NCBI GenBank assembly: GCA_032622095.1
Contig: CP136061.1
Location: 260,432,077-260,496,076 of the forward strand
DNA: 64,000 nucleotides
Reading direction: 5' to 3'
From: Siphonodentalium dalli
Taxonomy: Eukaryota; Mollusca; Scaphopoda; Gadilida; Siphonodentaliidae
The notes beneath the pieces were generated by a model. That model was given only the letters and a program-made list of their open reading frames with translations, had not been told where the DNA came from and ran no database searches. Positions within the stretch are counted from its first letter, which is position 1. Every line of letters starts with the position of its first letter. Made by a program: the position numbers and the translations under genes. Shown in pieces: positions 8,457-63,376 of the stretch.

Positions 8457-8690
8457 TTAACCCTTTTAGTGCCAGTGACCGATCTCATCGGCCCTAATTT
8501 ATGATCTGTAGAGTGCCCTAAACAAAATAAAAAAAATGAATTGTTTTTTTTGTTTTTTTTTGGGGGTTAGGCCAATGCATTCTCTTATATATGCGAGGCG
8601 ACCTATGGTCGACTCGCATATATAAGATAATGCATTGGCACAGGGTATATGGGTCGACACAAAAATCGGAGCTGGCACTCAAAGGGTTAA
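8457..8690. mobile_element. Family B non-autonomous TTAA element with the 67-bp hairpin
   Basis: A 226-bp body lies between two TTAA tetranucleotides (8457-8460, 8687-8690). The termini are inverted repeats: CCCTTTTAGTGCCAG on the left and, reversed, CCCTTTGAGTGCCAG on the right. TTAA targets and CCCT-type ends are hallmarks of piggyBac-group transposons. Inside, 8572-8638 is the 67-bp hairpin module, flanked by TTAGG on the left and CACAGGGTA on the right. There is no coding capacity, so movement would need a transposase supplied in trans (inference). Its terminal repeats differ from family A although the internal hairpin is the same. Confidence 0.8.
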
Positions 8691-11600
8691 GTGACTGTGA
8701 GCTATTTTGTTTTGTGTTGCTTACAATCATGGACTATCTTCCGGGTAATTAATTCAATGTTTATTGCGACATTGGCTCAGAAAAGTCACAGACAAGCATG
8801 AAATCTCTAACTGGGACCACCCATAATATGAAGTAGATTATTGAGGAACAAGTATCAACAAAGAAATATATTCCCTGCCTTGTTTGTTCAATGTTATAAA
8901 GTTCCCTGTCAGGACGGGTCAGAACATCAAAAAGTTCTCAGGTTTTATACTTGTGGAATATGATTTCTATACGTCCGTATTTAGAGTATAGATATTCATG
9001 ACATGATCTATCGCTGCGTGATGATGGGACGGCCAAATGTTTGTTTAAAATTGTTACAAGACACCGTATTGAAACTTTCGGTCAATGACCTGATTTTGGA
9101 TATAACAAGACTGTAAATCGAAGGGCATTCTGGGTAAGGCAAACTTGACGACAATGAAGCGGATCGCATTTGGGAATTAAACCGAATCAGTGGGGACAAT
9201 GAGCTAATATCGGGTATTTGTTTGGGTTGATGAGTAGCTCCCGTATACACAACAGACATGTTGGTCCATTAAATCAAACATCGTCGACAGATAAAGAAAC
9301 GGAATAAATTTGAGAATTATTGTCCCTGTGACCTGATCGGGTCACGGGTAACGTGATCCCTGGTTATTACGCCGATATCCTTTTTTCCACCTGTATCAAC
9401 GCTTAGCTTTATAACTGCACATGACGCGACGCCGGTGTATGCTAATTCCAGCCTCGACATTAGAGCAATTTATAAGAATTTTATCGTCCATTTAGATTCT
9501 ATGTAGCGTGTAATTAAGGGTTTTGATGCGATTTGCACACATTCCGTCGCATAGACAGATTGAGGTGTAGCGGATAATCATTAGTTTAGTTCATTGTTAC
9601 AACCAGGCACCTGAAGCGAGACGCTGTTTGGTTACCTGGGTTATAGCGTGCCTCGCCCAATATTATATCCAGATTGCTCAGTCGGTAAGGTGCAAGGCGC
9701 ATTAGGCCAGCTTAATCCGTAAATTGATGGTGAAGCTGTTTCTAATAAACGCGCAATTGTGATTCGCACACAGGAATATAACCTGATTCGTGTATCTGGA
9801 CAAGTGTGTCGGTTATATACTTTCCAGGGATCGCTGTATGGTTTTTATGTTCTGGGGAGTGATTTCACGGTGGGCTGTCTGTCCTCGTACAACTGATGTC
9901 GTGATATTGCCGCAGCCTGACGACTGAAATGGTCATAAACCCCAAACAAACTGCAACGAAGAAAGCTCACTCAACAGCACTTAATATTATATGTACATGT
10001 AGAGATAACACTGAAGATGACAAAGCCAAACATGATGAATCTATTGAGATTAACATTATGCATAACTATTTGTTGGGTGGATCGGCATTATTTCTAACCA
10101 ACACTTAGATGCATGCGTGTACTTCTGACCAATTTAACTCCGTTTGGGTTTTTTCGTTCGCCTAAGTACAATTCCGTTTGACTCGAGGATTCGGGGATTC
10201 GAGACTATAATTTACCAAGTGATACGCGAATTATAATCAGGTTGACTGTTACCAATCGTCTGGCGTGAGGATGTAAGCTAGCCACAGATACTCAGACACG
10301 CTTTAGCGAAAAATTATAATATATTGGCTTGATCCACCACATGCTGGACCAAGATGCTTTTATATCAATTTATTTAGATTCAAGAAGACAGGGCCGACTG
10401 TTATAAATAAATACCATAATCTGCATATAAATTCCCTTGGTCGTGGAGATGCCAGGAACACAGATGATAAGAATCAATTTAAGGGTAAACAAAAAGCCAA
10501 GTGCGAACTTGAGTACATCGGACGATGTAACGTATCCTCGTGGCAACAGGGCTCTAATGGGTCCCGCGTGCCCGGAGCTATCCCTCGGTGTGTTTGATTA
10601 TCGCTCGGTCACACGAGCACCCGCTTCCATTATTTGGGTTACAGTCACCGGAGTGCGAGCGCCACTGGAAGCAGATCGCATAATCCTGCTGCTATTGTTT
10701 GTTTATAATCTTTGCATTCTGGGAATTTCCTGCAGAATGTCCCAATAATTTCGACGAAGGGATATAATTCAACACAGCAGGTCACCATCGTCCTGAACGT
10801 ATGGAACGTGTTTATGCACACAAAAAAAAACAGGTTGATGTGGTCTCTAAAAACTTGATAAAAATTAGTTAATTGAATGTTAATTATATGGCGTTCCCTC
10901 GTGGTGTAAAGTAATAACGGGGTGTAGTTATGCACAAGTCGCCCTTTGCGACATTAGACCACAACTCAGAGGTTAATGGAAAGGGCGATGTTTAGACAAA
11001 ACGAATTAGGTTTAAATTGTACATGTAGTTTCGAGAAACCTCACAAAACTAGTTAATTGAAATTATAAGATGCGAGGCTGTCAAATGATGCAAAGTACAA
11101 TGTGTTGTTTAAACCCGGGATGAAAACATCACCCGTTTCTTTTGGAGTAAAGTTTCTAGTTCGCGTCTGTTTGCGGTAAAATCATGGCACGGATTTCCAA
11201 CTTTCCGCACGCGAATGTTGTGCGATAGATGCGTTTGAGTAACAGGGATTTCTGAGCACTAAGCTAGATTGGATACTCATCCCTCATTCTTGGCATAATA
11301 CTGGCAACGATTGCATCTTACTTCCCAAACAAACCGCTAAATGCTGTGACGTTTTATATCCCCCAGCGGCAAATTGTTGGCCACAAGAATTATGCTCAAA
11401 GTAATTACCGACGAATCAGGTCTAATGAGTTCCGTCTCATCTACTTCCTCGTTGTCGCCGATTGGAGGCGAGAGGCCTCGTTGTCGTGGCCTTATATTAT
11501 ACAATAAATCTAATTATGTCATGTCTCAAGAATGTTTCCTGGGTTCTGGTCATGTTCGCAATGTATCGGTTTTACGTTCACCAGAAACCATAGGTGAAGC

Positions 11601-12104
11601 AGCGACGTGCCGACAGGGGGTGTCTACCCCTCAACTTTGGTTATAATGTTCACCAGTTGCAAATGGCATGTCTGTCACATTATTAGTTGGACACTTTACA
11701 CCATAGAAATTGTTAAAAATTTGTCTCATTGTTTTATTGTTCAGTAATTAGTTGGCAACGAGTTGTTTTTATACAAACAGTAGCATATTTGTTTTACTTT
11801 TGGTAAACAAATTTAGGTCTGAAATGGCCACCAGTTAGGAATTTTCCGATCCTAGGGGGTGTCATGTTGGAAATGGCCAACATATATGGAAAGCATCTTA
11901 TATACCAGATAAGAGTTCCCCCGGTGTACAAATGGTATTTCAAGGGTTTTAGTGGGTGCAATTGGAAAACACCCGGCAATGTTGACCCCTCTAACAACGT
12001 CCCTGATGTGACGGCATAAATACAGGGTGGATCATTCTTGGTTATCTTCCAAATCTGGAGAATAAAAATTATATTACCCTCACTGCGCACTCCGAACCAT
12101 ATGT
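8691..12104. other. Single-copy-like stretch, no gene recognised
   Basis: No array or transposon end was recognised. A small inverted repeat (CCTGTGACC / GGTCACGGG) lies at 9329-9352. Segments near 9300-9700 and 10500-10700 are richer in GC and CpG than their surroundings and could be conserved regulatory or unrecognised exon sequence. Open frames of 90-122 codons (10437-10748, 11374-11646, 11794-12162 minus) show no familiar motif. Confidence 0.45.
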
Positions 12105-12468
12105 ATGTGACCCGCCATATGAAATCCAGTCGTAAGTCGGGATTTTTTTTACCCTGTGTCAATGCATTCTCTTATATATGCGAGTCGACCAAAGGTCGCC
12201 TCGCATATATAAGAGAATGCATTGGCCTAACAATTTGTTTTCATTTTTTTTTAAATAAATGTTTCTTACAATTGTTAGGACATAAAATAAAAAAAAACAT
12301 CCATTACCCTGCAGGGAGCCCCACACATATATAGAAGCATATAGAAGAGTGTCGTCTGCTCATGTTTGTCTGGGGCTCTGTATGGGTGAAGTTATAAAAT
12401 TGTTAAAGAATACAAGAACAAATTATTAAAATTGTAAAACAATTACGATTTGATTTGATATGAATTAT
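12105..12468. mobile_element. Family C hairpin element, copy 1
   Basis: The left end is TATGTGACCCGCCATATGAA followed by ATCCAGTCGTAAGTCGGGA, shared with the copy at 18695. Next come ACCCTGTG, a full 67-bp hairpin (12159-12225), an AT-rich spacer, and a second imperfect hairpin (about 12305-12390) built from GGGAGCCCCACACA and TGTCTGGGGCTCTGTATGGG. The right end, GTAAAACAATTACGA plus TTTGATATG, looks like a shortened inverted copy of the left end, so the second 67-bp hairpin appears to be deleted. Non-coding. Confidence 0.7.
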
Positions 12469-12471
12469 AGA

Positions 12472-12551
12472 TGTCTAATTAGTCTATATGATGATATATT
12501 TGACACACCTGTGTCTAATTAGTCTATATGATGATATATTTGACACACCTG
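12472..12551. repeat. 40-bp tandem duplication
   Basis: Two adjacent copies start TGTCTAATTAGTCTATATGA and end TTTGACACACCTG. They are identical, so the duplication is recent. Confidence 0.95.
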
Positions 12552-13310
12552 AGGATCATACACGTGGTGTTTAATCATGTCCAACATAAACTAATATTCA
12601 GTTGTCCTATGCTATATGCTAGATCAATGAGATATGACATTCGGGTCGATTTGGGGGGTATTTTGATTACAACAGATTTTGATATTTGTTTCTCGCAATT
12701 ATTATAGCATTACATCGTATAGTATTTACCCTGTGAGAAGACATTTTGACTAATAGTTATCGGGTGAAGACTTGAAGTATATATGTATAATGAGAAAAGT
12801 CATACACTATATATGAAACTATCAATAAGTACACACACCCTCTGAGACTATATCGGTTATTGTACAGTTAATATACAGGGGGGGGGGGAATACTCACGTA
12901 ATATTCACACATGCAATTTACAAGATTGCAACATGCCTGGGTTATATATACGACTCCCAGAGTATCACGTTTTAATGCTCGCGGATGAGTGTTCATTTTC
13001 CGCTAATAGAACCCAATATTCCCAATCAAAGCGGCTCTCGATGCGTGTTTTATGGACGCGGCTTACCCTTCTAACACATAGCATCATATGAACCTTTAAA
13101 CTTACGCTAATTTTCTTTTGATATATCCCTGTTAATTGATATTTCACTTTGATTGCCGCTAGACAGAAGCTGTCAGTAAGGATCACAGAGGATATAGGTA
13201 TATTGGGTATACAAAAAAGTACGATCGCTTTATTCAGGAGCTTGCATAGAAATAGGAATTGCGCTTTGATTAATTTCCTGTTGATGTAGCTTGTTATCTT
13301 ATAAAATATG
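12552..13310. other. Non-coding sequence, no gene seen
   Basis: AT-rich sequence with a G-run at about 12880-12888. The 73-codon minus-strand frame (12965-13186) is not recognised. Confidence 0.5.
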
Positions 13311-13437
13311 ATATGATGTGGTATTCGGTTGGGTTAGGGTTAGGGTTAGGCCCGTTATGGTTAGGGTTAGGGTTAGGGTTATGGTTAGGATTAGGGTTAG
13401 GGTTAGGGTTAGGGTGCTATGATGTGGCATTCGGTTG
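13311..13437. repeat. Interstitial telomeric (TTAGGG)n tract flanked by a 20-bp direct duplication
   Basis: About 14 TTAGGG-type units run from 13329 to 13415, with a few variants (GGTTATGG, TTAGGA, a GCCCG interruption). The tract lies between two near-identical 20-bp copies of TATGATGTGG(T/C)ATTCGGTTG, at about 13312-13331 and 13418-13437, with one mismatch. The G-rich strand reads left to right. The layout matches telomere repeat inserted at a break with duplication of the target, as known for interstitial telomeric sequences. Confidence 0.9.
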
Positions 13438-13717
13438 TTTTCACACAAAAAATTTGGAGGTCATTGAAAGACGTTATCTACTGTAACCGACTGAATTGTT
13501 TGAATGCGTGGGAAGCAGATCTGCATGTAAATGCTTTATGACACACCAGACTGGTCTCCCGAAAATGAACCTGTTGTCGGCTTATGAATCGGATTTATTT
13601 GGTGTAAACAATATTTATTTAAAAAATCAAACATACCACACAAACACAATGTATATATAGATACATAGAGATTTAGGAAGATGATTGGACAACAAGCAAA
13701 ATGCTTTGTTTGAGGTT

Positions 13718-13935
13718 CACAACCGGCGTAGAATCGCCTCATTTTGAGTCCATACCAGACTGGAAATGAGAGTGGTTTAGTGCCATTATCGACTCATAAT
13801 GAGAGTGTTTTAGTGCCATTATCGACTCATAATTATGTTTAATAAGTTCACTATGGGCGGTCAATAACACGAATAAACAAACTCACGACTTACTAGATGT
13901 ACGCTCTCTCTCTCTCTCCCCTCTCCTCTCCTCTC

Positions 13936-13983
<48 letters not shown>

Positions 13984-14085
13984 TCTCTCTCTCTCTCTCA
14001 AATGTGTTTTCACTATGGCCCGCGCCTTAAAATGAAATAACGGATATAAGTCCGTTATCGGCTTATTTATAGCTCGCAGAAATCT
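13718..14085. repeat. Dispersed repeat family R1, copy 2
   Basis: Blocks shared with 61150-61435 include GGCGTAGAATCG, CTCATTTTGAGTCCATA, AATAAGTTCACTATGGGCGG, ACAATAACACGAATAAAC and TATCGGCTTATTT. The block GTGCCATTATCGACTCATAA is locally duplicated (13781-13833). A (CT)n tract has expanded inside it. Non-coding. Confidence 0.7.
13903..13999. repeat. (CT)n-rich microsatellite
   Basis: Nearly pure CT/CCTCT repeat, about 95 bp, inside R1 copy 2. It creates a false R/E-rich minus-strand frame. Confidence 0.95.
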
Positions 14086-14279
14086 ACTCGATGTTAAATG
14101 CGTCATCCCAAGTTATGTCAGCTACTGGTTTTTTGTTTGTTCTTCATCCAGACCGAGTTTGAATCCAGACCAGGGCCAATTTTATTACAGTTTACAACAT
14201 TAGAACATTCAGTTTTCAAACATACCGCTATATACCGCTGTCTTTGTGTGCGTACCTTTTGTTTACATAATGGTATACT

Positions 14280-14660
14280 CGTCGCAGTATTCTATAGTCC
14301 TAATGTTAAAGTTGCACAATCCGATTCGATTGACTCCAACAACAATAACAACAACAACATTTCTTCGAAAAACGCTTTAGATATAAGAATCGATTAATTA
14401 CCAAAAAATAATGATAACCACTGTCAACTATACAGTACAGACTTTCCCAAAACGTGCCATATCTCAACATTTGTTCAACGTAATTAGATATCGAGAGTAT
14501 GTCGGTCGGCTCGTCGAATATTTTCTAGGCCGCCAAATATATATACCAGGTCGTGAAAAATAACGTATGTCAAAAATCAATATCGCATAACTTTTAGCCT
14601 TGATGGGTGGGTTCCTCGACTCGAATCAACTATTGTTTACAACAGAAGCCACATAAATTA
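14280..14660 (-). repeat. Dispersed repeat family R3, copy 1 (reverse orientation)
   Basis: Read on the minus strand it matches 53975-54320 block by block: TTTGGCGGCCTAG, AATATTCGACGAGCCGACCG, CTCGATA, TTGAACAAA plus TGTTG, GACAGTGGTTA, ATCGATTCT and GAAGAAATGTTGTTG. Related, more diverged copies are at 19890-20290 and 41060-41310. No coding capacity or clear termini were seen. Class unknown. Confidence 0.7.
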
Positions 14661-14772
14661 TAATTTAGAGGCGTTAGTTCGGATTACGTATATTTAAATG
14701 CGTCATCCTGAGTAATATCTCATGTCGGATACTGATTTTATTTGTTCTCCCTCCAGACCGATTTTGAATGCA

Positions 14773-14865
14773 GATCTTTCCCATGACATCGTCGATATTA
14801 TCAGACCTTTCCCATGACATCCTCGATATTATCAAACCTTTCCCATGACATCGCCGATATTATCA
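14773..14865. repeat. 31-bp tandem repeat, 3 copies
   Basis: The unit reads GACCTTTCCCATGACATCGT then CGATATTATCA, with single-base differences between the three copies. Confidence 0.95.
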
Positions 14866-15225
14866 GAATGCCCTTGATAGCATTACAGATGAACCTTATT
14901 TCGAAATTTAGTAATCGACTTTGCGCAATGCTGTCTCTCTGTCACAACGATTCTTTTATATGCTGATATAGGCCCCCTCCAGACAACCATTGAACGTGGT
15001 ACAGCGAAGACAGCGTGAAGCCTTTGTGCATTTGCGAGGTACACCTACATATAATTGCAGCCGATAAGAAGTCGCTGTAGTCAGATATGTCTGCCCTTTG
15101 TTCTGTGGGCCGTGTCCCACAAAAAACCATTCAATGATTTTATTCTAGCTGCAGTCTTTTTCAAATCGGCTATCAGACTTCACAATCACTGACGTGCACT
15201 AAGTTATTTCACGCCCGGTGCAATC
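14866..15225. other. Non-coding sequence, no gene seen
   Basis: Only short chance frames are present. No repeat was recognised. Confidence 0.5.
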
Positions 15226-15412
15226 GACCGAAGCCCCAAAAATTATGAATCGCATGCAGTCTATATATAGCGATGTTTTATTTTAGAATATGTAGCTCCA
15301 CCTGGTGGAATGTAATGACCGGACCGAAGCCCCAAAAGTTATGAATCGCATGCAGTCTATATATAGCGATGTCTTATTTGAGGGTATATATACAGATCCA
15401 CCTGGTGGAATC
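15226..15412. repeat. About 96-bp tandem duplication
   Basis: Two copies start GACCGAAGCCCCAAAA (15226 and 15322) and share CGCATGCAGTCTATATATAG and CCACCTGGTGGAAT. Confidence 0.9.
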
Positions 15413-15546: not shown

Positions 15547-15685
15547 CAGTAAAACCTCTTCAAACCAAACACCATTCGGACCGACCATTCTGTTCGATGT
15601 AGAGAGGTGTTCGATTTATAGAAAATCGCACAGTGATCGGAATGTATTGCCATCGTTACTAAGCATTGTCGAAACACAACCAACT
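15547..15685. mobile_element. Possible pogo/Tc5-like MITE end, truncated
   Basis: The sequence starts CAGTAAAACCTCTTCAAACC and contains GTAGAGAGGTGTTCGATTTA, an arrangement seen in short elements with CAGTnnAACCTCT-type termini. This resemblance is from memory and is weak. The right end is missing because a family A hairpin element begins at about 15686. It could instead be unique sequence: the minus strand also shows a good donor-like GAAG|GTGAGTA at 15516-15519. Confidence 0.25.
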
Positions 15686-16003
15686 GTCTCAATAGAACCA
15701 TACAAATATGGATATCATTGGAACCGGCTCCTTGACCACATTGTGATAGTTACAGTTATACCCTGTGCCAATGCATTCTCTTATATATGCGAGTCGACCA
15801 TAGGTCGCCTCGCATATATAAGAGAATGCATTGGCCTAAAAAAAATCTTTTTTTACCATTTTTTCTTACATTCTTCAACAATTTTATAATTTTTAGTGTG
15901 TTAAGCCAATGCATTCTCTTATATATGCGAGGCGACCTATGGTTGACTCGCATATATAAGAGAATGCATTGGCACAGGGCCGTTCTGTTGGGTAAAGGGT
16001 TAA
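15686..16003 (-). mobile_element. Family A TTAA hairpin element, 5'-truncated, reverse orientation
   Basis: It matches the complete copy at 52573-52973 from CTGTCTCAATAGAACC onward, so about 75 bp of the long arm and its terminal repeat are missing. Both 67-bp hairpins are present (15768-15834 and 15906-15972), separated by the usual AT-rich spacer. The right end, TGTTGGGTAAAGGG plus TTAA (16000-16003), is intact. Loss of one terminus would make this copy immobile (inference). Confidence 0.85.
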
Positions 16004-17029: not shown

Positions 17030-17343
17030 TTAACCCTTTACCCAACAGAAGGGCCCTGTGCCAATGCATTCTCTTATATATGCGAGTCGACCATAGGTCG
17101 CCTCGCATATATAAGATAATGCAATGGCTTAACACATTAAAAATTATAAAATTGTTAAAGAATGTAAGAAAAAATGAGAATGCATTGGCACAGGGCATAA
17201 CTGTAACTATCACAATATGGTCAAGGAGCCGGTTCCAATGATATCCATATTTGTATGGTTCTATTGAGACATACCGAAGATATTTTAGGCTGTTGAAGCT
17301 TTATTTGGCCGGTTTTTGGCCGTTTTGTTGGGTAAAGGGTTAA
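17030..17343 (+). mobile_element. Family A TTAA hairpin element with internal deletion
   Basis: TTAA at 17030 and 17340 flank CCCTTTACCCAACA and TGTTGGGTAAAGGG ends. The first hairpin is whole (17061-17127), with one base change in the last arm. Of the second hairpin only GAGAATGCATTGG (17176-17188) remains, joined to the spacer at AAAAAAT. The long arm (CACAATATGGTCAAGGAGCC onward) is complete. At 314 bp it is about 85 bp shorter than full copies. Confidence 0.9.
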
Positions 17344-18694: not shown

Positions 18695-19078
18695 TATGTG
18701 ACCCGCCATATCAAATCCAGTCGTAAGTCGGGATTTGTTTTACCCTGTGCCAATGTATTCTCTTGTATATGCGAGTCGACCATAGGTCGCCTCGCATATA
18801 TAAGAGAATACATTGGCCTAACAATTTTTTACAATTTTAATAATTTTTTCTTGTATTCTTTAACAATTTTATAATTTCACCCATACAGAGCCCCATGCAG
18901 ACAAACATGAGCAGACGACACTCTTCTATGAGCTTCTATATATGTGTGGGGCTCCCTGCAGGGTAATGGATGTTTTTTTTATTTTATGTCCTAAAAATTG
19001 TAAGAAACATTTATTTAAAAAAAATGATAAAACATTGTTAGGCCAATGCATTCTCTTATATATGCGAGGCGACCTATG
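18695..19078. mobile_element. Family C hairpin element, copy 2, truncated at right
   Basis: The left end TATGTGACCCGCCATATCAA is followed by TTTTACCCTGTG and a full hairpin at 18750-18816. An AT spacer follows, then the GAGCCCC hairpin (about 18880-18965, from CACCCATACAGAGCCCC to GGGGCTCCCTGCAGGG), a second AT spacer, and the first half of a second 67-bp hairpin from 19043. This stops at the loop (GCGACCTATG, 19078), where unrelated sequence begins. The full hairpin carries paired changes in both arms (GTATT opposite AATAC). This copy shows the fuller family C order: end, hairpin, spacer, GAGCCCC hairpin, spacer, hairpin. Confidence 0.85.
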
Positions 19079-40411: not shown

Positions 40412-40810
40412 TTAACCCTTTACCCAACAGAAGGGCCCTGTGCCAATGCATTCTCTTATATATGCGAGTCGACCATATGTCGCCTCGCATATATAAGAGA
40501 ATGCATTGGCTTAACACATTAAAAATTATAAAATTGTTAAAGAATGTAAGAAAAAATGGTAAAAAGTGTTTAAAAAAGATTTTTTTTAGGCCAATGCATT
40601 CTCTTATATATGCGAGGCGACCTATGGTCGACTCGCATATATAAGAGAATGCATTGGCACAGGGTATAACTGTAACTATCACAATGTGGTCAAGGAGCCG
40701 GTTCCAATGATATCCATATTTGTATTGTTCTATTGAGACAGACCGAAGATATTTTAGGCTGTTGAAGCTTTATTTGGCCGGTTTTGGCCGGTTTGTTGGG
40801 TAAAGGGTTA
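40412..40810 (+). mobile_element. Family A TTAA hairpin element, near-complete
   Basis: TTAA (40412-40415) and CCCTTTACCCAACA start the element; TGTTGGGTAAAGGG ends it, followed by TTAG rather than TTAA. The hairpins are 40443-40509 (loop variant CATATGTCG) and 40591-40657, the second in inverted orientation. The spacer between them is AT-rich (ATTAAAAATTATAAAATTG). The long arm carries GTGGTCAAGGAGCCGGTTCC and TTGGCCGGTTTTGGCCGG. Non-coding; false frames read through both hairpins. Confidence 0.92.
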
Positions 40811-41059
40811 GTATTAATATGAAAATATATATTGATCTAAGTCCAAATGATTGTGGTGTCGGTTCGGATGCAAAAATGCTAGGTCAGAACAAAAAATTTA
40901 TAATCCACGGCGATAGCATATCGTTGACAGTCTCTCTTATTCGTGTACCACATATAAGACTCATCCAAACGTTTGATGTGCCATCTTACACTCTTATATA
41001 CATGTATACTGCCTACCCGCTATACTAAATCTACGTCTCGGACAAAATTGAGGATGAAG

Positions 41060-47900: not shown

Positions 47901-48112
47901 TTTTTTTTTACCCTGTGCCAATGCATTCTCTTATATATGCGAGTCGACCATATCATGTTTTTTAAATAGATGTTTCTTGCAATTTTTAGGACATAAAATA
48001 AAAAACATCCATTACCCTGCAGGGAGCCCCACACATATATAGAATCATATAGAAGAGTGTCGTCTGCTCATGTTTGTCTGGGGCTCTGTATGGGTGAAAT
48101 TATAAAATTGTT
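47901..48112. mobile_element. Family C hairpin element, copy 3, with stem-bounded deletion
   Basis: ACCCTGTG leads into the first half of the 67-bp hairpin (47918-47952, up to the loop GACCATA). This joins directly to TCATGTTTTTTAAATAGATG, a spacer that in the copy at 53876 lies outside the hairpin. The GAGCCCC hairpin (about 48015-48100) follows. The deletion therefore removed the second hairpin arm exactly from the loop. The TGTGACCC end is absent. Confidence 0.85.
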
Positions 48113-52572: not shown

Positions 52573-52973
52573 TTAACCCTTTACCCAACAAACCGGCCAA
52601 AACCGGCCAAATAAAGCTTCAACAGACTAAAATATCTTCGGTCTGTCTCAATAGAACCATACAAATATGGATATCATTGGAATCGGCTCCTTGACCACAT
52701 TGTGATAGTTACAGTTATGCCCTGTGCCAATGCATTCTCTTATATATGCGAGTCGACCATAGGTCGCCTCGCATATATAAGAGAATGCATTGGCCTAAAA
52801 AAAATCTTTTTTTTAACACTTTTTACCATTTTTTCTTACATTCTTTAACAATTTTATAATTTTTAATGTGTTAAGCCAATGCATTCTCTTATATATGCGA
52901 GGCGACCTATGGTCGACTCGCATATATAAGAGAATGCATTGGCACAGGGCCCTTCTGTTGGGTAAAGGGTTAA
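52573..52973 (-). mobile_element. Family A TTAA hairpin element, complete, reverse orientation
   Basis: TTAA at 52573-52576 and 52970-52973, with CCCTTTACCCAACA and TGTTGGGTAAAGGG termini. The long arm comes first here (GGAATCGGCTCCTTGACCAC), then hairpin 52727-52793, AT spacer, hairpin 52876-52942, and the short arm GGGCCCTTCTGTTGGG. At 401 bp it is one of the most intact copies and a good reference. Confidence 0.95.
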
Positions 52974-53704: not shown

Positions 53705-53956
53705 AATTAACGCTCCCACCCATACAGAGCCCCAGACAAACATGAGCAGACGACACTCTTCTATATGCTTCTTTATATGTGTGGGGCTCCCTGCAGGGTA
53801 ATGGATGTTTTTTATTTTATGTCCTAAAAATTGTAAGAAACATCTATTTAAAAAACATGATAAAAAATTGTTAGGCCAATGCATTCTCTTATATATGCGA
53901 GGCGACCTATGGTCGACTCGCATATATAAGAGAATGCATTGGTACAGGGTAAAACA
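53705..53956. mobile_element. Family C hairpin element, copy 4
   Basis: It starts CACCCATACAGAGCCCC (GAGCCCC hairpin, about 53717-53800, ending GGGGCTCCCTGCAGGG). The spacer ATGTCCTAAAAATTGTAAGA and a full 67-bp hairpin (53876-53942) follow, then TACAGGGTAAAAC. The TGTGACCC-type ends are missing on both sides. It shows the undeleted form of the junction lost in the copy at 47901. Confidence 0.85.
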
Positions 53957-53974
53957 ATTAGTACTATATTAGTT

Positions 53975-54701: not shown

Positions 54702-55164
54702 TTAACCATTTACCCAACAGAACGGCCCTGTGCCAATGCATTCTCTTATATATGCGAGTCGACCATAGGTCGCCTCGCATATATAAGAGAATGCATTGGC
54801 TTAACACATATTAAAAATGATAAAATTGTCAAAGAATGTAGAAAAATATTATAAAAATTGTTACAAAATGTAAGAACAAATTATAAAATTGTTAAAGAAT
54901 GTAAGAAAAAATGGTAAAAAGTGTAAAACATTTTTTGTTTAGGCCAATGCATTCTCTTATATATGCGAGGCGACCTATGGTCGACTCGCATATATAAGAG
55001 AATGCATTGGCACAGGGCATAACTGTAACCATCACAATGTGGTCAACGAACCGGTTCCAATGATATCCATATTTGTATGGTGTTAGTGAGACAGACCGAA
55101 GATATTTTAGGCTGTTGAAGCTTTATTTGGCCGGTTTTGGCCGTTTTGTTGGGTAAAGGGTTAA
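54702..55164 (+). mobile_element. Family A TTAA hairpin element with expanded spacer
   Basis: TTAA at 54702 and 55161. The left terminus has one change (CCATTTACCC). The hairpins are 54733-54799 and 54944-55010. The spacer between them is about 144 bp instead of about 82 because the motif TATAAAATTGTTAAAGAATGTAAGAA is repeated about 2.5 times. The long arm is complete. Confidence 0.95.
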
Positions 55165-55261
55165 TTAAGAGATTTATCCCACAGGGAGCCTCACACAGAT
55201 GGAAGCATGCACTGCAGAGTGTCGTCTGCTCCAGTCTATGTGAGGCTCTATAAAGGGTTAA
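55165..55261. mobile_element. 97-bp TTAA-bounded GAGCCTC hairpin, abutting a family A element
   Basis: It starts at a TTAA directly adjoining the TTAA of the previous element and ends AAAGGGTTAA (55252-55261). The core is an imperfect hairpin, GGGAGCCTCACACAGA ... TCTATGTGAGGCTC, with middle GAGTGTCGTCTGCTC shared with the GAGCCCC hairpin of family C. It looks like a solo relative of the family C internal hairpin that carries a family A/B-like right end. Confidence 0.65.
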
Positions 55262-56740: not shown

Positions 56741-56749
56741 CCAGTGGGA

Positions 56750-56970
56750 GATGAAAATATTTACAATTGAGCGCAGTTCAGATTTTGTATTCTATGGAGT
56801 GGTACGGTCGTTTTTTTTTAAATTTTCGCCAATTTTAGTTGAATGCTACTCCCCCTGTTGCCATAGCGCATGAGTACTAACTTATCAATTTCACGCACCC
56901 GAACAAGTCCAAAATATTTCTTTAGTATGTTAGACCGCACAGGGTGAAATATTCCCTGCGGAAGATCATG
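56750..56970 (+). repeat. Dispersed repeat family R2, copy 4 (partial)
   Basis: It begins AAAATATTTACAATTGAGCG and shares AGTTCAGA, TTCTATGGAGTGGTACGGTC, ATTTTCGCCAATTTTAG, GCCATAGCGCATGAGTACTA and GAACAAGTCC with 46610-46770. Confidence 0.75.
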
Positions 56971-57019
56971 ATAGATGTACTCAGTAATCCCAAACTTCGT
57001 CGTTATTTTTTGCCCTGCA

Positions 57020-57458
57020 TTAACCCTTTACCCAACAGAAGGGCCCTGTGCCAATGATAAACTACCATACCCTGATGGTAAGCTACCATACCCTGATGAT
57101 AAACTACCATATCCTGATGATAAACTACCATACCCTGATGATAAACTACCATATATATGCGAGTCGACCATAGGTCGCCTCGCATATATAAGAGAATGCA
57201 TTGGCTTAACACATTAAAAATTATAAAATTGTTAAAGAATGTAAGAAAAAATATATGCGAGTCGACCTATATGGTCGACTCGCATATATAAGAGAATGCA
57301 TTGGCACAGGGCATAACTGTAACTATCACAATGTGGTCAAGGAGCCGGTTCCAATGATATCCATATTTGTATGGTTCTATTGAGACAGACCGAAGATATT
57401 TTAGGCTGTTGAAGCTTTATTTGGTCGGTTTTGGCCGGTTTGTTGGGTAAAGGGTTAA
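57020..57458 (+). mobile_element. Family A TTAA hairpin element with a minisatellite in one hairpin and a converted second hairpin
   Basis: TTAA at 57020 and 57455 and both terminal repeats are intact. In hairpin 1 (57051-57204) the left arm is interrupted after CCAATG by about 4.5 units of ATAAACTACCATACCCTGATG and resumes at ATATATGCGAG. Hairpin 2 (57252-57303) lost the outer left arm; its core reads GCGAGTCGACC-TATAT-GGTCGACTCGC, a perfect palindrome, whereas normal copies carry one G/A mismatch. The long arm is normal. Confidence 0.92.
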
Positions 57459-59317
57459 TGTTACTACTACGAATAGCTAAGCGTAGTCGTAACTATATCC
57501 ATGAGTTGTGAAACCTCCCTATTTTCATTCATTCCCAGCTTTGATAGATTCAAAATCTAGAACTGTCGTATACCAATGAGATTTCATCTCACCTTATAAT
57601 CTTCTTTTCACGGCTATCGTACAATGTATAAACTTGACATTAGACATGCATATAAGGAAATATCTTCGATGAGATAAGAGTTATTTGATGTAAAGATATG
57701 AACTGTGTATGTGTTATCTCTACAAACCACCCTGACGCCTTAAACTATGACAGGTTTATATACTGTAAGCGTCTTGATATCACATATCTATCGTCGCGGC
57801 AGTATAACTACCTCGGACAGGCGACCGCGTTGACTCGACGACTACCGTGATTAAACAAATATTGAGTACACAAGTGTTTACCTGACGGATTTGATGATTA
57901 AATGTTTTATAGATTGAAAAAGTAAACACGTTTATCTCCCTTAATGCCCGTGTTTACGATCGAACTATTGTTGAATAATTGACATAATTGTTTGACAGTG
58001 ATAACGAGTGTATAAAATGTTTGAAGTTTTTGCCATGCACCACATGTGGTGGTGGATCTTTCTCGTTTCAAAGTGTTGGCTCATTCTGGAGACAAAAGAT
58101 AACTAGGAGGGTAAATTGCTACCCCCGCTAAATCGATTGTGTAGTGACTGTAGTCATACAATTTTACGCTCATCGCATTCAAGCATGTTGCATGCATGCG
58201 CATGCACGCAACTGTCCAGTGTAGGTTTCCGCTATTATTTATTACCACCAAAGTTGGCTACACGAATACATACATATCGCGTACACAACAGCCGTGCTTA
58301 AATTCAGCTTTCTCAATGATTCCTCTATATGCCGCCCAAGTGACTCATTGCATGTTGGAAACGGTGGCCCTTCTGGTGCGTCGGGTACAGCATTGCGGAT
58401 TACTTGGGAACGCATTGATATATTTATAGCATATGTATAAATATAAAGTCCGCTTATAAAACAATTAATATATTCAATGTATATGTTTATACATAAATGT
58501 ATCAGGTGTATATACGTGAGCATATGTCCCTTTAATGCAAAATCATATAGCTTTACATAACACGTCCAATGCACCCACTTCGTCTTGAGTTATCATAACT
58601 GATATGATATAATTAAGTGAAGAGAACGACATTCCTAATCCCGAGACATCAGTTTTACCAACTTGAAAGTGGCTACATGGGTTGGCTATATCACCTACGT
58701 TACAAGTCAAAACGCACACATTGAATTAGCCTTGCGCTTCCTTTACTGATATACTATTGTCGATGATAATGAATTATATTCCTGTTCTCGACTCATCTCG
58801 AGACACACATTTTACCACCTGCATGCATGAAAGGTGGACACGTATACGGTTGGCGAACATTGTCGAAAACAATTTCGGGGTAAAATAAAATTCTTTGAAT
58901 CTATTATCACCAACGGTATAATGTGCACACGGAGTCAGCCTGGCTGTGTGTAGACTATTTGCATCATTAACCAACAATGCACACATATTCCCATGCGGGG
59001 AGCGTGTCCCAGGTACTACCACTATCACAAGTGCGATACAATACCTTCCCAAGTTTACCACCTACACGAGACCTCCTCTGTTCTGCAAATGTATGCATAC
59101 AAACAAGACAGGGATACTGTATACGTTATACGCCAATTAGTGAAGAATGTGATTTCGCGCCTTTTGTTCCCAGAATTGACACGATCACCTGTAGGCCAGG
59201 AGTAGTAATTATACCTGTAGAATAATTAGGGGCGGGACCAGCTTAGGTAATACGGGCAAGACTTAACGCGACATATGTTAGTTAACACTTATTTTCTGAT
59301 ATTTTCTCCGAACACTT
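57459..59317. other. Non-coding sequence, no gene confirmed
   Basis: A minus-strand stretch at about 58280-58420 reads NAVPDAPEGPPFPTCNESL in one frame and ends before a GTATGT, but nothing connects to it. Other frames overlap each other. No repeats were seen. Confidence 0.4.
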
Positions 59318-59725
59318 GACTTGAAACATATTTTAGTTGTATATAATAATACAAAATGGATCGGGGCACAAGTTTTGTCAGCAATACTTATTGGGGGTGG
59401 GGGGGGGGGGGGGGGGCTCGGTTGTTCTGTTAGGGGTACAACTCCAATCCGTCCCGCCCTCCAGCGCTGGCGATGGGAGTTCAAATATTCATGTTTCCAT
59501 CATGAACTTTGTAACTCGAAATTGTTATCTGGTGGAGTTGCCATGCAGTTACTCGCCAATGGCCGGATTTCCTCCACCACTAAAACTGGCAATGTCGTGA
59601 GATGGCATCAGTTACTAAAAGCGACATTAAACCCATATAAATAAATTGTCAACTTATGAAGCCCCTTCCAATACAAACAATTAAGCATACAACAAGATGA
59701 CACCTGAACATATTTACATGCATTA
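59318..59725 (-). mobile_element. Non-LTR retrotransposon 3'-UTR, reverse, with a nested insertion
   Basis: On the minus strand, TTGTATTGGAAGGGGCTTCA plus TAAGTTGAC and then ACAAAACTTGTGCCCCGATC and AAAATATGTTTCAAGT reproduce the 3' end at 29070-29155. Between the two blocks, about 270 bp (about 59375-59645) interrupt the UTR, bordered by ATAAGTTGAC and ATAAGTATTGCTGAC, possibly a target duplication. The insert includes a long G-run (59394-59416) and has no recognised identity. A minus-strand frame just upstream (59941-59723, ending ELWNELRRIQQNVPFYNT) may be a coding scrap but is unassigned. Confidence 0.65.
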
Positions 59726-60353
59726 TGTGTTGTAGAACGGTACATTTTGTTGGATTCTGCGTAATTCATTCCAGAGTTCATTGCTTTTGGCTATGGTTGA
59801 TTTTCTAGCCATGATTTGATGAAGTTTTTGTGGTTGTTCGTTGCGTACCTGTATATATGTGCGTGTTATACATATATTTTTACAGCAGAATTTACATATG
59901 ATTACTAATGGACCTCTTTAAATTGCCAGCGTGCATCCATCATCACTTATGTAATATTGCTATATGATTCACTATTTGTGGCCTTTAACATTCTAGTGCT
60001 GGTTCATCCAATAGATTATATTTATGATGAACTATTTACTCACAAAAGTTTGATGAAGTAAATAACTGGTTAGATTGGTCACATGTATGCTGTTGATGGG
60101 TCAAAGTTTCTCTCCTCAATGTCCCACTAGGGGATAGCCGACAGACGCAGTATATACGATAATAGCCGCTAACTCAATAACAGTCTATTGGCATATCGAA
60201 TAACGCCCACGAGGTGACTCAGGTGGTTGGGCATCTGTTATATCGTCTGCTGTTGTATTGCAGCTGATATATCGTCTGCTGTTGTATTGCAGCTGATACC
60301 GTCTCAAAACTCAGTTATTTACTTATCCTCATACAGCAAGGTTTAGAACCGAT
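59726..60353. other. Non-coding sequence with a 29-bp duplication
   Basis: ATATCGTCTGCTGTTGTATT plus GCAGCTGAT occurs twice in tandem at about 60240-60298. No gene seen. Confidence 0.5.
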
Positions 60354-60440
60354 ATACCCGGTGGCTCAGTCGATAAGGTCAATGTCGCATTAATTAGACT
60401 GAAACAAGCCGTCCAGTAATGGTTCGATTCCTGATTTGCG
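60354..60440 (+). repeat. tRNA-like promoter segment, possible SINE head or tRNA pseudogene
   Basis: An A-box-like GTGGCTCAGTCGATAAGG (60361-60378) is followed 43 bp later by a near-consensus B-box, GGTTCGATTCC (60421-60431). The spacing is on the long side but within the range of tRNAs with a long variable arm or an intron. I could not fold a full cloverleaf with paired acceptor ends, so a functional tRNA is unlikely. A tRNA-derived SINE or decayed tRNA gene fits better. Confidence 0.4.
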
Positions 60441-60499
60441 CGGATTTGTGATCTACGCATTAACAATTTATATATGTAATGATTCTACCAATCAACTGT

Positions 60500-61435
60500 A
60501 AAATTATAAAATGGAATGTTTATTAATTATTGGGAGGAACATTCTGGTTATTAAAGCAGACGACAGACAAACGAACTGATTATACAAGTGGAGAAGGGTT
60601 CATATTCATTGGTGTGAAATGTTCAGATAATAAGTTCAACAAACTCATTATCTGAGTAGTTCTTAAGGGAACTACTCGTCAAAATGAGTAGTTACTAAAG
60701 AAAGGGTTAGCCTGGCCCGAATCGTCCATCATGGCAAATCAGTTACTTACAGTGTCGGTGGCTTCTATGTGCAACAGGCTGATTTCCCCATTGACATCAA
60801 CCATATATATATGCGCTCTTTCTATCAACGATAAAAACAACGTCGTGATATATCCTAGCAGCTGACACGGCGATAAACCCCAATGCAATATACCGACCAA
60901 CACAAACCGACATTCTAAGCATTAGGTGTTGTGCACGTATGTAGCTTGTTCTCTTGAAAATCAGCACGTTATGGGCTAATAATAGCATATGATTCATGAT
61001 CGACCTCTTTAATGGTGTCATATCCCACTATATACCATAAATCGATCAATCGTACGTTTACCTATCCCATAAAACAATTAGATCCGAACCACGCATGGAC
61101 CCAATAATACTGTTCTCCCGATATGCAGCACGTTATGGGCTAATAACAGTATTTATATAGGTTCATAATCGGCGTAGAATCGCAGAATCGTCTCATTTTG
61201 AGTCCATAACCAACTTAAAATGAGAGCGCTTTGTCGACTGATAATAACTTATTATAAGTTCATTATGGGCGGACAATAACACGAATAAACCAACTAACGA
61301 CTTAGCAGATCTTTAAATGTGTTTTCAATGTGGCCTGCGCAATAAAACAGAATAAAGCAAATAAGTCAACTATCGGCTTATTTCATAATCAAATAATCAA
61401 ATATTAAACCTATGTGAATATTATAGTTCAATTTT
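60500..61435. repeat. Dispersed repeat family R1, copy 4 (longest)
   Basis: It contains GAAATGTTCAGATAATAAGT, TCAACAAACTCATTATCTGA, one 68-bp minisatellite-like unit (AACTACTCGTC...AGAAAGGGTTA), two AGCACGTTATGGGCTAATAA blocks, GGTTCATAATCGGCGTAGAA, CTCATTTTGAGTCCATAACC, TTCATTATGGGCGGACAATA and CTTATTTCATAATCAAATAA. It combines blocks found in copies 1, 2 and 3 and so best represents the full element. Confidence 0.7.
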
Positions 61436-61585
61436 ATGAACATATCTGCATGAGTATATGTTGACGTATGTGTGGGTATCGGTATGTGCGTGGTTATGAT
61501 GGTATGTTATCTACACGTTAATGCTCTTCAAAATAGTTTCCAGAATGAACACGTCATTACAAAATGCTCTTTTTCTTTCTTTCAG
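61436..61585. other. Presumed intron sequence
   Basis: It ends in CTTTTTCTTTCTTTCAG, a strong polypyrimidine tract and acceptor for the exon at 61586. Confidence 0.5.
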
Positions 61586-61680
61586 TGGAAGTAAATGGCA
61601 CGCATAACCTGATAGGGTTAATGCTCGTGGCGGTTCCGACCGCTGATGATTTCGAGCGGAAAGATATCGGAGAGTTCCAT
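61586..61680 (+). CDS. Internal exon, possible reeler-domain segment
   Basis: A 95-bp open stretch lies between a strong acceptor (TTTCTTTCTTTCAG) and a consensus donor (CAT|GTAAGTAT). Read with two bases completing a codon from an upstream exon, it gives EVNGTHNLIGLMLVAVP, then TADDFERKDIGEFH, ending in phase 0. The pattern GT...(hydrophobic) G(F/L)(L/M)(L/V)xA ... (I/V)GxF resembles the middle of reeler domains, which occur in reelin, ferric-chelate-reductase-like and defence-type secreted proteins. The resemblance is judged by eye. The exon at 62142 continues in the same phase. Base composition and codon use are clearly unlike the AT-rich surroundings. Confidence 0.5.
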
Positions 61681-61982
61681 GTAAGTATATAAGGTTATAT
61701 TCTTTTTAAGAAATTACATCAAAATGTCATAACAACTTGCACCCATATTCCTTGGAGCGCAACACTACCAACATCGCATTCGCGGTGTGAATCCCACAAA
61801 GAGGACGTCGGTTGGTTGAAATCATTCCATGTCACGTCGCACGCATGACCCATTATGTTTCCATATGGTATGGACGCAACCAGAATCTATTCCAAAGCGG
61901 GTGCCAGCTGCTCTTTTAATTTGCAAGTTGAGTGTAAATATAATAAATGAATGTAAAGTTTGTTCCGTTCCATGGAACACGC

Positions 61983-62033
61983 ATGGATGCAAGTTGGTCT
62001 GACATAATTATGTGTGGACCAACTTGCATCCAT
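61983..62033. repeat. Perfect 17-bp inverted repeat (hairpin) in the presumed intron
   Basis: ATGGATGCAAGTTGGTC is mirrored by GACCAACTTGCATCCAT with a 17-bp loop that itself contains ACATAATTATGT. It lies between the two candidate exons. It is short, has no transposon-like flanks, and is unlike the 67-bp hairpin. Confidence 0.95.
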
Positions 62034-62141
62034 TTCTTCATGAAACGTAGGCAAATCGACATCCATTTTGAAATGTTGCACGATTGTCAAAGAGTGTCTT
62101 CCGTCGGCCCAAAGTTGCGGAAGATGTGTTTTTTTCTTCAG

Positions 62142-62213
62142 ATTCCGATATTGTATAGAACATCAATATTCGTGGAAATCCAAGTATTCAGCTGCCATGC
62201 TGATTGGGGTCAG
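62142..62213 (+). CDS. Internal exon continuing the reeler-like segment
   Basis: 72 bp between TTTTTTTCTTCAG and CAG|GTAACC. In phase 0 it encodes IPILYRTSIFVEIQVFSCHA then DWGQ. This joins the previous exon without a frame break, across a 461-bp intron. In reeler domains a (Q/K)(L/V)(L/F)xC motif follows the GxF strand, and IQVFSC would fit. Downstream, a stretch after TTTCTTTTGCTTAG at 63448 is a possible further small exon but is too short to judge. A 174-codon frame (61947-62471) spans this exon; its remainder is probably intronic read-through. Confidence 0.45.
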
Positions 62214-62976
62214 GTAACCTTGGAAACACTGGCTGGTCGTATGAGTCTGTATATGGAAGTATTTACTTGCTTTCAGATATGTATATGTATATATGGCCTC
62301 ATGCATGCACGTGGGTTAACCGTTTTGGAATGGAAAGACGAATCCGTGACCTCTGAGACCCGGATGAACACTTTACGTCGCTACGCCGACAGTTTATTAG
62401 TATTAAGGGCAATTACATTGGCTTCAATTTCAAGCACGAGTGACCTTATGTCGATTGTACGTCACTCTTAAGTAGTTTAGGTTCCTCAAAGTAGGACCAA
62501 TGTGGTTTCCATCCGCATTTTATAATTCACGGAAATTAACTTTCCCAACAATTTGTCTCCTCGAAATATTTGTTGAATGAATGTATGCTGAATAGGCATC
62601 TTTAGCCAATATTTTTAAAATATATTATAGATATACATGTATGTGATCAGATAAAATAGAGGTACTGGCTCAGTATATGATGTGTTCAATAAACTGTTCA
62701 ACTGTTCACATGTGCGTGAATAAATGATTAGGTCTTATCGAACTGACCCAGTTACGATCAGAATGACTCGTCTAAATGTACATATAATACAACGACAAGG
62801 TTCGGATATCAACAGTTAGCCCCAGTACCAAGAAACAATGCATATGCAATAGTTTCACAAGTATGCCACGTCACTGAGACAACCCATAAGAGCAATATAC
62901 TGGTTAAATAAACATCGGTATTGAACTTTTGTGATTTCGGCAAAAATGGTGAACATTGTAGTGTCGTTATCCTCCA
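62214..62976. other. Presumed intron or intergenic sequence
   Basis: No further exon was confirmed. ACAATGCATATGCAATAGTT at 62837 has a close copy at 63758 (ACAATGCATATACAAGAGTT). Confidence 0.45.
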
Positions 62977-63376
62977 TTAACCCTTTACCCAACAGAACGG
63001 CCCTGTGCCAATGCATTCTCTTATATATGCGAGTCGACCATAGGTCGCCTCGCATATATAAGAGAATGCATTGGCTTAATACATTAAAAATTATAAAATT
63101 GTTAAAGAATGTAAGAAAAAATGGTAAAAAGTGTTAAAAAAAGATTTTTTTTAGGTCAATGCATTCTCTTATATATGCGAGGCGACCTATGGTCGACTCG
63201 CATATATAAGAGAATGCATTGGCACAGGGCATAACTGTAACTATCACAATGTGGTCAAGGAGCCGGTTCCAATGATACCCATATTTGTATGGTTCTATTG
63301 AGACAGACCGAAGATATTTTAGGCTGTTGAAGCTTTATTTGGCCGGTTTTGGCCGGTTTGTTGGGTAAAGGGTTAA
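62977..63376 (+). mobile_element. Family A TTAA hairpin element, complete reference copy
   Basis: A 392-bp body lies between TTAA at 62977-62980 and 63373-63376. Termini: CCCTTTACCCAACAGAACGG and, reversed from the right end, CCCTTTACCCAACAAACCGG. Hairpin 1 is 63008-63074 and hairpin 2 is 63156-63222, each the inverted copy of the other, so the unit is a palindrome of palindromes. The AT-rich spacer has no coding capacity. The long arm (63223-63372) contains GTGGTCAAGGAGCCGGTTCC and a GGCCGGTTTTGGCCGG direct repeat. TTAA targets and CCC(T) ends indicate mobilisation by a piggyBac-group transposase (inference). Confidence 0.95.

Follow-up and report, generated by a model that had tools for sequence, protein, structure and literature searches.

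The 64,000-nucleotide stretch of the Siphonodentalium dalli genome analysed here (contig CP136061.1, called the window throughout) contains copies of three small transposon families, A, B and C, all of which carry the same 67-base hairpin (Table 1). A sequence check placed the 15 full-length hairpins of the initial annotation exactly where they had been reported, and BLAST recovered the same 15 together with the five rearranged copies. The anatomy was likewise as described: the arms are 32 bp long, the loop has 3 bases and there is a single internal T.C mismatch. The flanking motifs CCCTGTG and CCTAA or CTTAA, reported to be always present, are conserved, but single-base mutants occur, e.g. 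CCCTGTA beside the hairpin at 53876. The C copies in the window are truncated or rearranged.

Table 1. Hairpin-bearing elements of the window (positions counted from its first nucleotide).
Element	Positions	Strand	Hairpins and other features
Family B	8457-8690	+	TTAA; CCCTTT(T/G)AGTGCCAG TIRs; hairpin 8572-8638 toward right end; short GGCCGAT..ATCGGCC palindrome toward left end
Family C, without right end	12104-12434	+	TIR, hairpin 12159-12225, spacer, C_mid, AT-rich spacer
Family A, outer A_R absent	15684-16003	-	hairpins 15768-15834 and 15906-15972
Family A	17030-17343	+	hairpin 17061-17127; second hairpin shrunk to 17176-17195
Family C	18695-19078	-	hairpin 18750-18816 with one compensatory change across both arms; half hairpin 19038-19078, loop break
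Family A, complete, final TTAA base mutated	40412-40811	+	hairpins 40443-40509 and 40591-40657
Family C fragment	47903-48112	+	half hairpin 47911-47952, break just beyond loop
Family A, complete	52573-52973	-	hairpins 52727-52793 and 52876-52942
Family C fragment	53717-53958	-	hairpin 53876-53942 and C_mid
Family A, longer-spacer subfamily	54702-55164	+	hairpins 54733-54799 and 54944-55010
Family A	57020-57458	+	two rearranged hairpins, 57152-57209 and 57251-57311; 21-bp tandem array 57054-57153
Family A, complete	62977-63376	+	hairpins 63008-63074 and 63156-63222

Fold and copy number of the hairpin

The predicted fold of the hairpin has an energy of -50.9 kcal/mol, compared with a mean of -11.7 for shuffled sequences (z = -13.9). 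In the genome searched (2.23 Gb, 9 contigs) we counted 152,002 exact hairpin-edge junctions and 81,964 exact 74-bp copies. A 20-mer of the hairpin had 157,048 exact forward and 157,062 exact reverse matches, whereas the same 20-mer read backwards had none genome-wide, and chance occurrence was rejected on this basis. Viral contigs (exact scan) and phages (blastn) gave no matches, nor did Rfam at gathering score in the window. Several families of small transposons, unlike in their ends and target marks, have as their core a single 67-base hairpin of very high copy number.

Ends and interiors of the families

In the loci read, the core is laid out as CCCTGTG-hairpin-CYTAA ~ spacer ~ TTAGG-inverted hairpin-CACAGGG, and its hosts are A and B (TTAA), C (2 bp, mostly TA), a diverged TTAA family, D, and an intermediate, D2; D/D2 and F are the end types found beyond A, B and C. 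Families A, B and C have the same hairpin consensus, with the hairpins of A and B near-identical. Their outer sequences are family-specific and not alignable by eye, and the switch falls at most a few bases away from the outer edge of CCCTGTG. With the outer ends judged in this way, the internal region is more conserved between A, B and C than the TIRs. The TIRs of A, B and D (CCCTTTACCCAACA, CCCTTT(T/G)AGTGCCAG and CCCTT(T/C)CATGAC) agree with the definition of piggyBac-type TTAA MITEs in the available part of PMC2872659, i.e. 12-19 bp starting with CC(C/T)T. The ends of C measure 52 bp. In most elements the hairpin starts ~31-54 bp inside the tip; the right hairpin of A lies ~154 bp from it.

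The copies of B that were read (8457 in the window, and L002 and L007, apparently one duplicated locus) retain a single hairpin and have a small palindrome of different sequence, GGCCGAT...ATCGGCC, near the opposite end. Family C had also been taken to possess one hairpin; in all three C elements read from end to end (L016, L027 and L038) there are two. Family D is more diverged: its hairpins, with compensatory changes in the arms, are 72-95% alike to a hand-made D form. At two D2 loci (L036 and L047) the modern hairpin, together with tandemly repeated A/C spacer, is joined to a D-type left end. Since D carries a diverged hairpin and the modern one stands behind D-type left ends in D2, the core seems to be older than its present ends. 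All four family forms, A to D, retain the T.C mismatch. At L021, a D-type left end (3223) and a B-type left end (7030) have no hairpin nearby.

Target-site duplications and empty sites

TTAA flanks both ends of the complete A and B copies, with the exception noted in Table 1, and is also found at the ends of the D copies read. For the A insertion of L002, of which L007 is an apparent duplicate, 14 empty-site matches spanned the junction, 13 with equal query and subject lengths (best 108/115). No clean empty site was found for B, whose sole match was 76% identical with gaps, or for D at the four junctions searched. Families A and B carry piggyBac-type TTAA ends. Among the ten C copies with both ends readable (three further copies without a readable end were left out), the flanks were TA/TA in eight, TT/TT in one and TA/AA in one; one related empty site (81/100) is consistent with a 2-bp duplication. 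TA duplication is as expected of Tc1/mariner-type MITEs, and the TT copy is atypical for that superfamily.

Family C is a separate element, with ends of its own (52 bp) and a duplication of 2 bp that is mostly TA, and the reading of C as A nested in another repeat, raised in the initial annotation, was rejected for these reasons. The unalignable ends and different target duplications of A (TTAA) and C (2 bp), with one related empty site each, show that C is not simply an A element lying in another repeat. The other reservation raised there, that the ends simply diverged from those of one ancestor, is unlikely for A versus C, but gradual divergence is possible among the TTAA families A, B and D alone.

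The proposal that the interior is a mobile cassette stood in part. One core does lie behind mutually unalignable ends with different target duplications, but there is no evidence that a 79-bp unit moves alone: the common block is longer and runs into the AT-rich spacer neighbouring the hairpin, which A, B, C and D2 also have in common, and no duplication was seen by eye around the core alone in the loci read. The observations fit a core that descended while the ends were replaced, rather than a cassette that was inserted.

End types across the genome and search for an autonomous partner

The first 100 hairpin junctions listed on chromosome 1, a non-random sample with apparent tandem or inverted duplicates (an 11-kb B array; L040/L046, L041/L045, L042/L044 and L037/L039), comprised 40 of type A, 28 B, 20 C, 2 with a C core but no C end, 6 D, 2 D2 and 2 F. 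They were classed by eye through coordinate matching (74), by their distance from a classed partner or from one another (11, of which 2 were sequence-confirmed in L038) or as sequence (15), the sequence-read loci being L001 and 14 others. Genome-wide, and with patterns of unequal length, B had 24,355 tips versus 12,898 hairpin junctions and C had 19,996 versus 16,881. A strict TIR screen of the window and 200 kb of random sequence returned 14 TTAA elements; the hairpin was present in all eight with CCCTT tips and in none of the six others.

At least 128 matches to DDE_Tnp_1_7 were obtained, some genes being counted twice, with 116 of 649 candidates scored. Fourteen piggyBac loci were read, four as whole 3.6-kb stretches and ten as two flanks separated from the domain by gaps, and among them we found no autonomous copy bearing the 67-bp palindrome and neither A or D tips nor a hairpin nearby. 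The traces at these loci were 21-bp matches only, to A_R in L072 (E = 0.004) and to the hairpin in L082 (E = 0.08). A B-like tip, TTAACACGTTGAGTGCCGG, adjoins two piggyBac-transposase loci (L032 and L076) and agrees with the B TIR CCCTTTGAGTGCCAG at 12 of 15 positions by manual count.

Breakpoints, covariation and conservation

Thirteen broken modern hairpins gave 17 breakpoints, hand-picked from BLAST edges and in some cases paired from a single deletion. Nine of the 17 fell near the loop, within 11 of 79 positions, an interval set after viewing (binomial P = 2e-4); the count left out L007 and L089 as apparent duplicates and the D-type hairpins, including L043. These nine breakpoints come from nine of the 13 hairpins, and without L088 the count was 7 of 14 (P = 1e-3). 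In L088 and L089 only the two outer arms remain, with ~1.2 kb of other DNA between them.

The two arms covary. Changes on both sides were seen in 28 cells compared with 11.0 +/- 2.3 after shuffling, and none of 500 shuffles was as high. The two measures least affected by relatedness gave 7 two-sided pair changes versus 4.6 (27 of 500 shuffles as high) and 22 further pair types versus 18.8 (20 of 500).

The hairpins of two A subfamilies, grouped after viewing the alignment with L021 standing alone, differ at 0/134 sites and their ends (A_L+A_R) at 10/185 (P = 0.006); this comparison left out the element at 57020, whose tandem insertion misaligns the hairpin, and the rearranged L027_4321, and with all 13 rows HP1 gives 21/747. 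Strong constraint on the hairpin after insertion was rejected because the whole-genome counts are close, 34,865 reaching 20 bp into the hairpin versus 33,044 reaching 20 bp into A_R (a pattern of 17 fixed and 3 two-fold sites). The decay estimated from these counts is ~1.0% per site for the hairpin and 1.5% for the adjacent A_R, with ranges of 0.7-1.2% and 1.2-1.8% for a C-form anchor share of 0.93-0.97, which was assumed from 96 of 100 places listed, a non-random set. Ten aligned copies showed 7 differences in 1,137 hairpin positions versus 29 in 1,460 of A_R (P = 0.003), and mild extra conservation of the hairpin is possible. By inspection, the hairpin of D copies is kept no better than the D_R end. 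The spacer difference between A and C is unfit as a clock, since the spacer derives from a tandem array of unequal units.

Discussion

We tentatively favour, at somewhat less than an even chance, the view that the hairpin is a palindromic core prone to recombination and that one MITE family after another is rebuilt around it. It would be the conserved core of a non-autonomous DNA transposon (MITE) lineage; the palindrome may extrude or stall replication and then be cut near the loop, and template-switch repair could join it to the ends of other transposons. Being the joint where new families formed, the hairpin would then be present in each of them, and each product would be moved by the transposase matching its new ends, presumably piggyBac-type for A, B and D and a putative TA-duplicating enzyme for C. 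This rebuilding is suggested by the family anatomy, the different target marks, the D2 joins, the breaks at the loop, the outer arms left in L088/L089 and the covariation of the arms. We infer the link from break to joint, since the mapped breaks are at the loop of the hairpin whereas the ends join it at its outer edge. Among the loci read, no core-only empty site and, except for D2, no half-made swap was seen. Several observations run counter to rebuilding: copying from arm to arm should erase the T.C mismatch, yet it persists in all four family forms; the contrast between hairpins and ends in the A subfamilies is not needed for a mere joint; and the covariation measures least affected by relatedness are the weaker ones.

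The main rival, which we regard as possible though on the unlikely side, is that the hairpin is a cis-acting amplification signal, a palindrome bound by a transposase or a host factor, so that intact copies amplify and recombinants gaining the hairpin out-compete others. The invariant A-subfamily hairpins, the matching numbers of tips and hairpin junctions in B and C, the strict TIR screen and the arm covariation all favour such a signal, as does the binding of subterminal palindromes by piggyBac and piggyBat transposases through paired C-terminal domains, described in the available part of PMC11707139. The differing target duplications of A/B and C make one transposase site for all unlikely, however, and B amplified on one hairpin, the right hairpin of A lies far from its tip, none of the 14 piggyBac loci has the hairpin nearby, and the D-type and B-type left ends of L021 lack it. 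The ends of piggyBac and piggyBat, as far as the same source describes them, resemble those studied here in the TTAA duplication and in a palindrome some tens of bp in from the tip, but that palindrome measures 14-19 bp, and the 67 bp found here far exceed the 19-bp piggyBac site. Unlikely as well is a core acting as a transferable cis-acting unit that crosses transposon superfamilies, adopted in turn by at least three TTAA-type end systems and one TA-type and amplifying any carrier to tens of thousands of copies whatever the transposase.

It is improbable that the hairpin is a pure passenger without a role, identical only through a recent burst from a very recent common ancestor of the A, B and C cores. 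The broadly similar decay of hairpin and A_R and the state of the D hairpins agree with a passenger, but the core is also present in the diverged D family, the arms covary and end swapping would be left unexplained. We give little credence to dispersed gene conversion keeping the hairpin uniform across families: the 81,964 exact copies and the common consensus despite differing flanks speak for it, and L036 and L047, with a modern hairpin beside a decayed D-type end, could fit, but conversion should wipe out private mutations in old copies, whereas the other D hairpins look no less decayed than the sequence around them and private mutations do occur in the hairpins of A. Very improbable is transcription of the hairpin and its processing into small RNAs (microRNA or siRNA) used by host or element; the stable predicted fold of 67 nt and the arm covariation are in line with it, but Rfam matched nothing in the window at gathering score and a loop of 3 nt is small for a pre-miRNA.

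It is usual to define MITE families by their ends and to regard the interiors as filler. Here the lasting part looks like the interior and the replaceable part like the ends, even across two types of target duplication. Should the hairpin drive amplification or the exchange of ends, it would offer a concrete, testable route to new MITE families, and in genomes like this one a family tree based only on the ends would be misleading. The copy number also makes this genome a natural test bed for the persistence of long palindromes in chromosomes.

Within the TTAA families the CMITEs of Acropora corals are a close precedent, the only match to the pattern of a common interior among the papers listed in our literature searches, although others may exist in print. 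As described in the available part of PMC2872659, they are TTAA-flanked MITEs of ~100 bp in ~1,600 copies whose 13-14 bp TIRs are of several kinds, mostly with CCCTTT at the start; they have one conserved 75-bp internal region in common and are linked to piggyBac-like transposons. By description, the likeness lies in the common interior behind several TIR kinds with TTAA flanks; in that part of the source, however, no hairpin is described for the core and the flanks are TTAA only, whereas here a near-perfect 67-bp hairpin, often doubled, has 152,002 exact edge junctions (against ~1,600 copies) and also occurs in 2-bp TA-type elements. The new part is this crossing to a TA-type family.

Family C belongs in appearance with the MITEs that duplicate TA, which include Tc1/mariner-like and other elements: it has TIRs and TA on both sides in 8 of 10 complete copies, but TT on both sides in one. 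Foldback or snap-back elements likewise have inverted repeats that form hairpins, whereas here the hairpins lie inside the elements as modules, and families A and B have short TIRs of the conventional kind.

Hairpin abundance and the ends that carry it

All 15 full-length and 5 partial hairpins that the initial annotation had claimed in the window are present at the positions it listed, and the single-strand fold has an energy of -50.9 kcal/mol (z = -13.9). The window belongs to contig CP136061.1 (called C1 for simplicity; 260,432,077-260,496,076) of a genome of 2,226,750,531 bases in 9 contigs of 190-301 Mb each. Counted genome-wide on forward plus reverse strands as exact matches, so that mutated copies are missed, the arm 20-mer occurred 314,110 times (two arms per hairpin), the hairpin outer edge GAGAATGCATTGGCACAGGG 152,002 times and the 74-bp CCCTGTG plus hairpin 81,964 times. 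Exact junctions numbered 39,297 (A right), 37,112 (A left), 16,881 (C) and 12,898 (B) in the whole genome; as these patterns are unequal in length, the remainder up to the count of the bare edge includes mutated copies. The B tips (24,355, two per element) and the C tips (19,996) match the respective junction numbers. The first 100 junctions on C1, classed partly by hand and with duplicates among them, comprised 40 A, 28 B, 20 C, 2 C cores without a C end, 6 D, 2 D2 and 2 F. Hairpin hits on C1 also recur at regular spacings (Table), pointing to large tandem duplications carrying elements along.

In a strict screen of the window and random loci, 14 TTAA elements were obtained; the hairpin was found in all 8 with CCCTT tips and in 0 of the 6 others. 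Counter-cases are two left ends in locus L021, one D-type and one B-type, with no hairpin nearby.

Anatomy of the families

Family anatomy was read from the window together with 20 randomly drawn 10-kb loci and eight short loci that overlap, a set later extended to 89 loci in total. Family A (~395 bp) is bordered by TTAA on both sides and has a left end of 24 bp and a right end of 147 bp; between the ends lie the hairpin, an AT-rich spacer and the hairpin again in inverted orientation. In family C, TIRs of ~52 bp (TGTGACCCGCC...) enclose the hairpin, a spacer with the inserted module C_mid, the A-type spacer and the inverted hairpin. Family B carries one hairpin, in the order TTAA, short GGCCGAT..ATCGGCC palindrome, spacer, hairpin, 45-bp end and TTAA. 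The A, B and C sequences diverge from one another within a few bases outside CCCTGTG. The more diverged D family combines TTAA and CYCTT(T/C)CATGAC... ends with either a single hairpin or two; its hairpins match a manually built D form at 72-95%. In D2 (L036 and L047), the left ends are of D type, with 82% and 88% similarity, and are followed by the modern hairpin and by A/C spacer in a tandem array; the right ends lie outside the stretch read, and the TTAA is intact in L047 and mutated in L036. One further outer context, F, was seen in L037 and L039, apparently one duplicated locus. Arrays of other units were also noted (Table).

Target marks and empty sites

Of 28 joined flank pairs checked for empty sites, those of one A insertion (L002, with L007 as its apparent duplicate) produced 14 hits across the junction. 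Query and subject were equally long in 13 of these, and the best hit (108/115) was gap-free across a single TTAA. A C insertion (L048/L049) matched L016 at 81/100; the 6-base gap in this match lies off the junction, and the hit is consistent with a 2-bp duplication. Weak hits were obtained for one B (76%) and a second C (72%), and the remaining 23 of the 28 pairs gave no empty-site hit. Complete C copies were flanked by TA/TA (8/10), TT/TT (1/10) or TA/AA (1/10). On this evidence, A and C are distinct elements, each leaving its own kind of target mark. For one A element, the empty-site hits lie at or next to copies of a hairpin-less 157-bp TTAA element.

Evolution and breakage of the hairpin

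In 29 distinct hairpins, picked by us from 61 full-length ones, 93.2% of cells paired and 28 cells were changed on both arm sides (11.0 in shuffles); the covariation score was 0.116 versus 0.065 +/- 0.006, reached by 0/500 shuffles, although the tool warns that kinship among sequences inflates it. Sturdier measures gave a weaker signal, with 7 both-side-changed pairs versus 4.6 (27/500 shuffles as high) and 22 further pair types versus 18.8 (20/500). Three pairs that set D apart from A supply 22 of the 28 cells; the window hairpin at 18750 has both arms changed in step at one site. By inspection, the internal T.C mismatch is retained in the D, A, B and C forms. Two A subfamilies differ at 0/134 hairpin sites, 10/185 end sites and 4/81 spacer sites. 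Decay after insertion, estimated from genome counts at ~1.0% per site inside and ~1.5% outside the hairpin, looks broadly similar, whereas ten aligned copies gave 0.6% and 2.0%. The core seems to have outlasted its ends.

Across 13 modern hairpins that are partial, with apparent duplicates counted once, 17 breakpoints were placed; 9 of them fell within the 11 central of 79 positions, an interval set after the data were seen (P = 2e-4 if uniform); without L088 the count was 7 of 14 (P = 1e-3).

piggyBac loci and possible roles of the core

Scoring of 116 of 649 candidates yielded 128 piggyBac transposase domain matches, some genes being counted twice and many matches lying within open frames of ~500-700 aa. 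Neither the hairpin nor A or D tips were found at the 14 loci examined (4 whole, 10 by flanks), the only traces being 21-bp matches, one in L072 with the A right end (E = 0.004) and one in L082 with the hairpin (E = 0.08). A tip similar to that of B, TTAACACGTTGAGTGCCGG, occurred on two of the 14. Among the matches listed, 14 transposase copies with a 562-aa frame have an internal TGA, two of them also a TAG.

We tentatively favour, at somewhat below even chances, a core that is a recombination-prone palindrome and would act as the joint where new MITEs are put together. That it is instead a cis-acting amplification signal appears somewhat less likely. In favour of such a signal, subterminal palindromes are bound by piggyBac and piggyBat transposases (PMC11707139); it speaks against it that a single core is common to both TTAA and TA-type elements. 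Readings of the hairpin as a passenger, or in terms of gene conversion or small RNA, are less probable than either. Different TIRs around one interior have a precedent in coral CMITEs, for which PMC2872659 describes several TTAA MITE families with differing TIRs and a common 75-bp interior. Relative to what is described there, the new features are a core that is a hairpin with covariation, the way D, D2 and A/B/C are related, the presence of the core in a family that duplicates 2 bp as well, and the scale.

A Bcl-2-family gene between hairpin arms

Hairpin instability is seen strikingly in L088 and L089, where two outer hairpin arms are left inside inverted repeats totalling ~390 bp, which also hold C-type ends and flank a 0.7-kb centre with a Bcl-2-family gene, interrupted in L088. 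The two loci share flanks and so probably derive from one event, later duplicated; the gene was possibly captured by a hairpin transposon.

Table. Coordinates of loci and repeats
Feature	Location	Strand	Description
Bcl-2-family gene	L089:638-1171	+	Pfam PF00452, E = 1.8e-13; open frame ~177 aa
Bcl-2-family copy, interrupted	L088:634-1077	+	Pfam PF00452, E = 9.6e-11
Bcl-2 loci (L089 and L088)	C1, ~4.50 and 4.55 Mb		Pfam match
D-type left end	L021:3223		
B-type left end	L021:7030		
157-bp TTAA element	L016:3596-3756; L016:6829-6989; L021:5992-6152		CCA(C/A)AGC(A/G)-type ends
Tandem array	L021:7030-7880		~115-bp units related to C_mid (AACCCATAGAGAGCCCCACATAGAC...), directly behind the B-type left end
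Single array-unit relative	window ~55161-55261		TTAA-flanked; related to the L021 array unit
Tandem array	window 6018-7774		61-bp unit, 28.9 copies, 96% match
Regularly spaced hairpin hits	C1 ~735-785 kb; 794-921 kb		every 14.56 kb and ~11.17 kb
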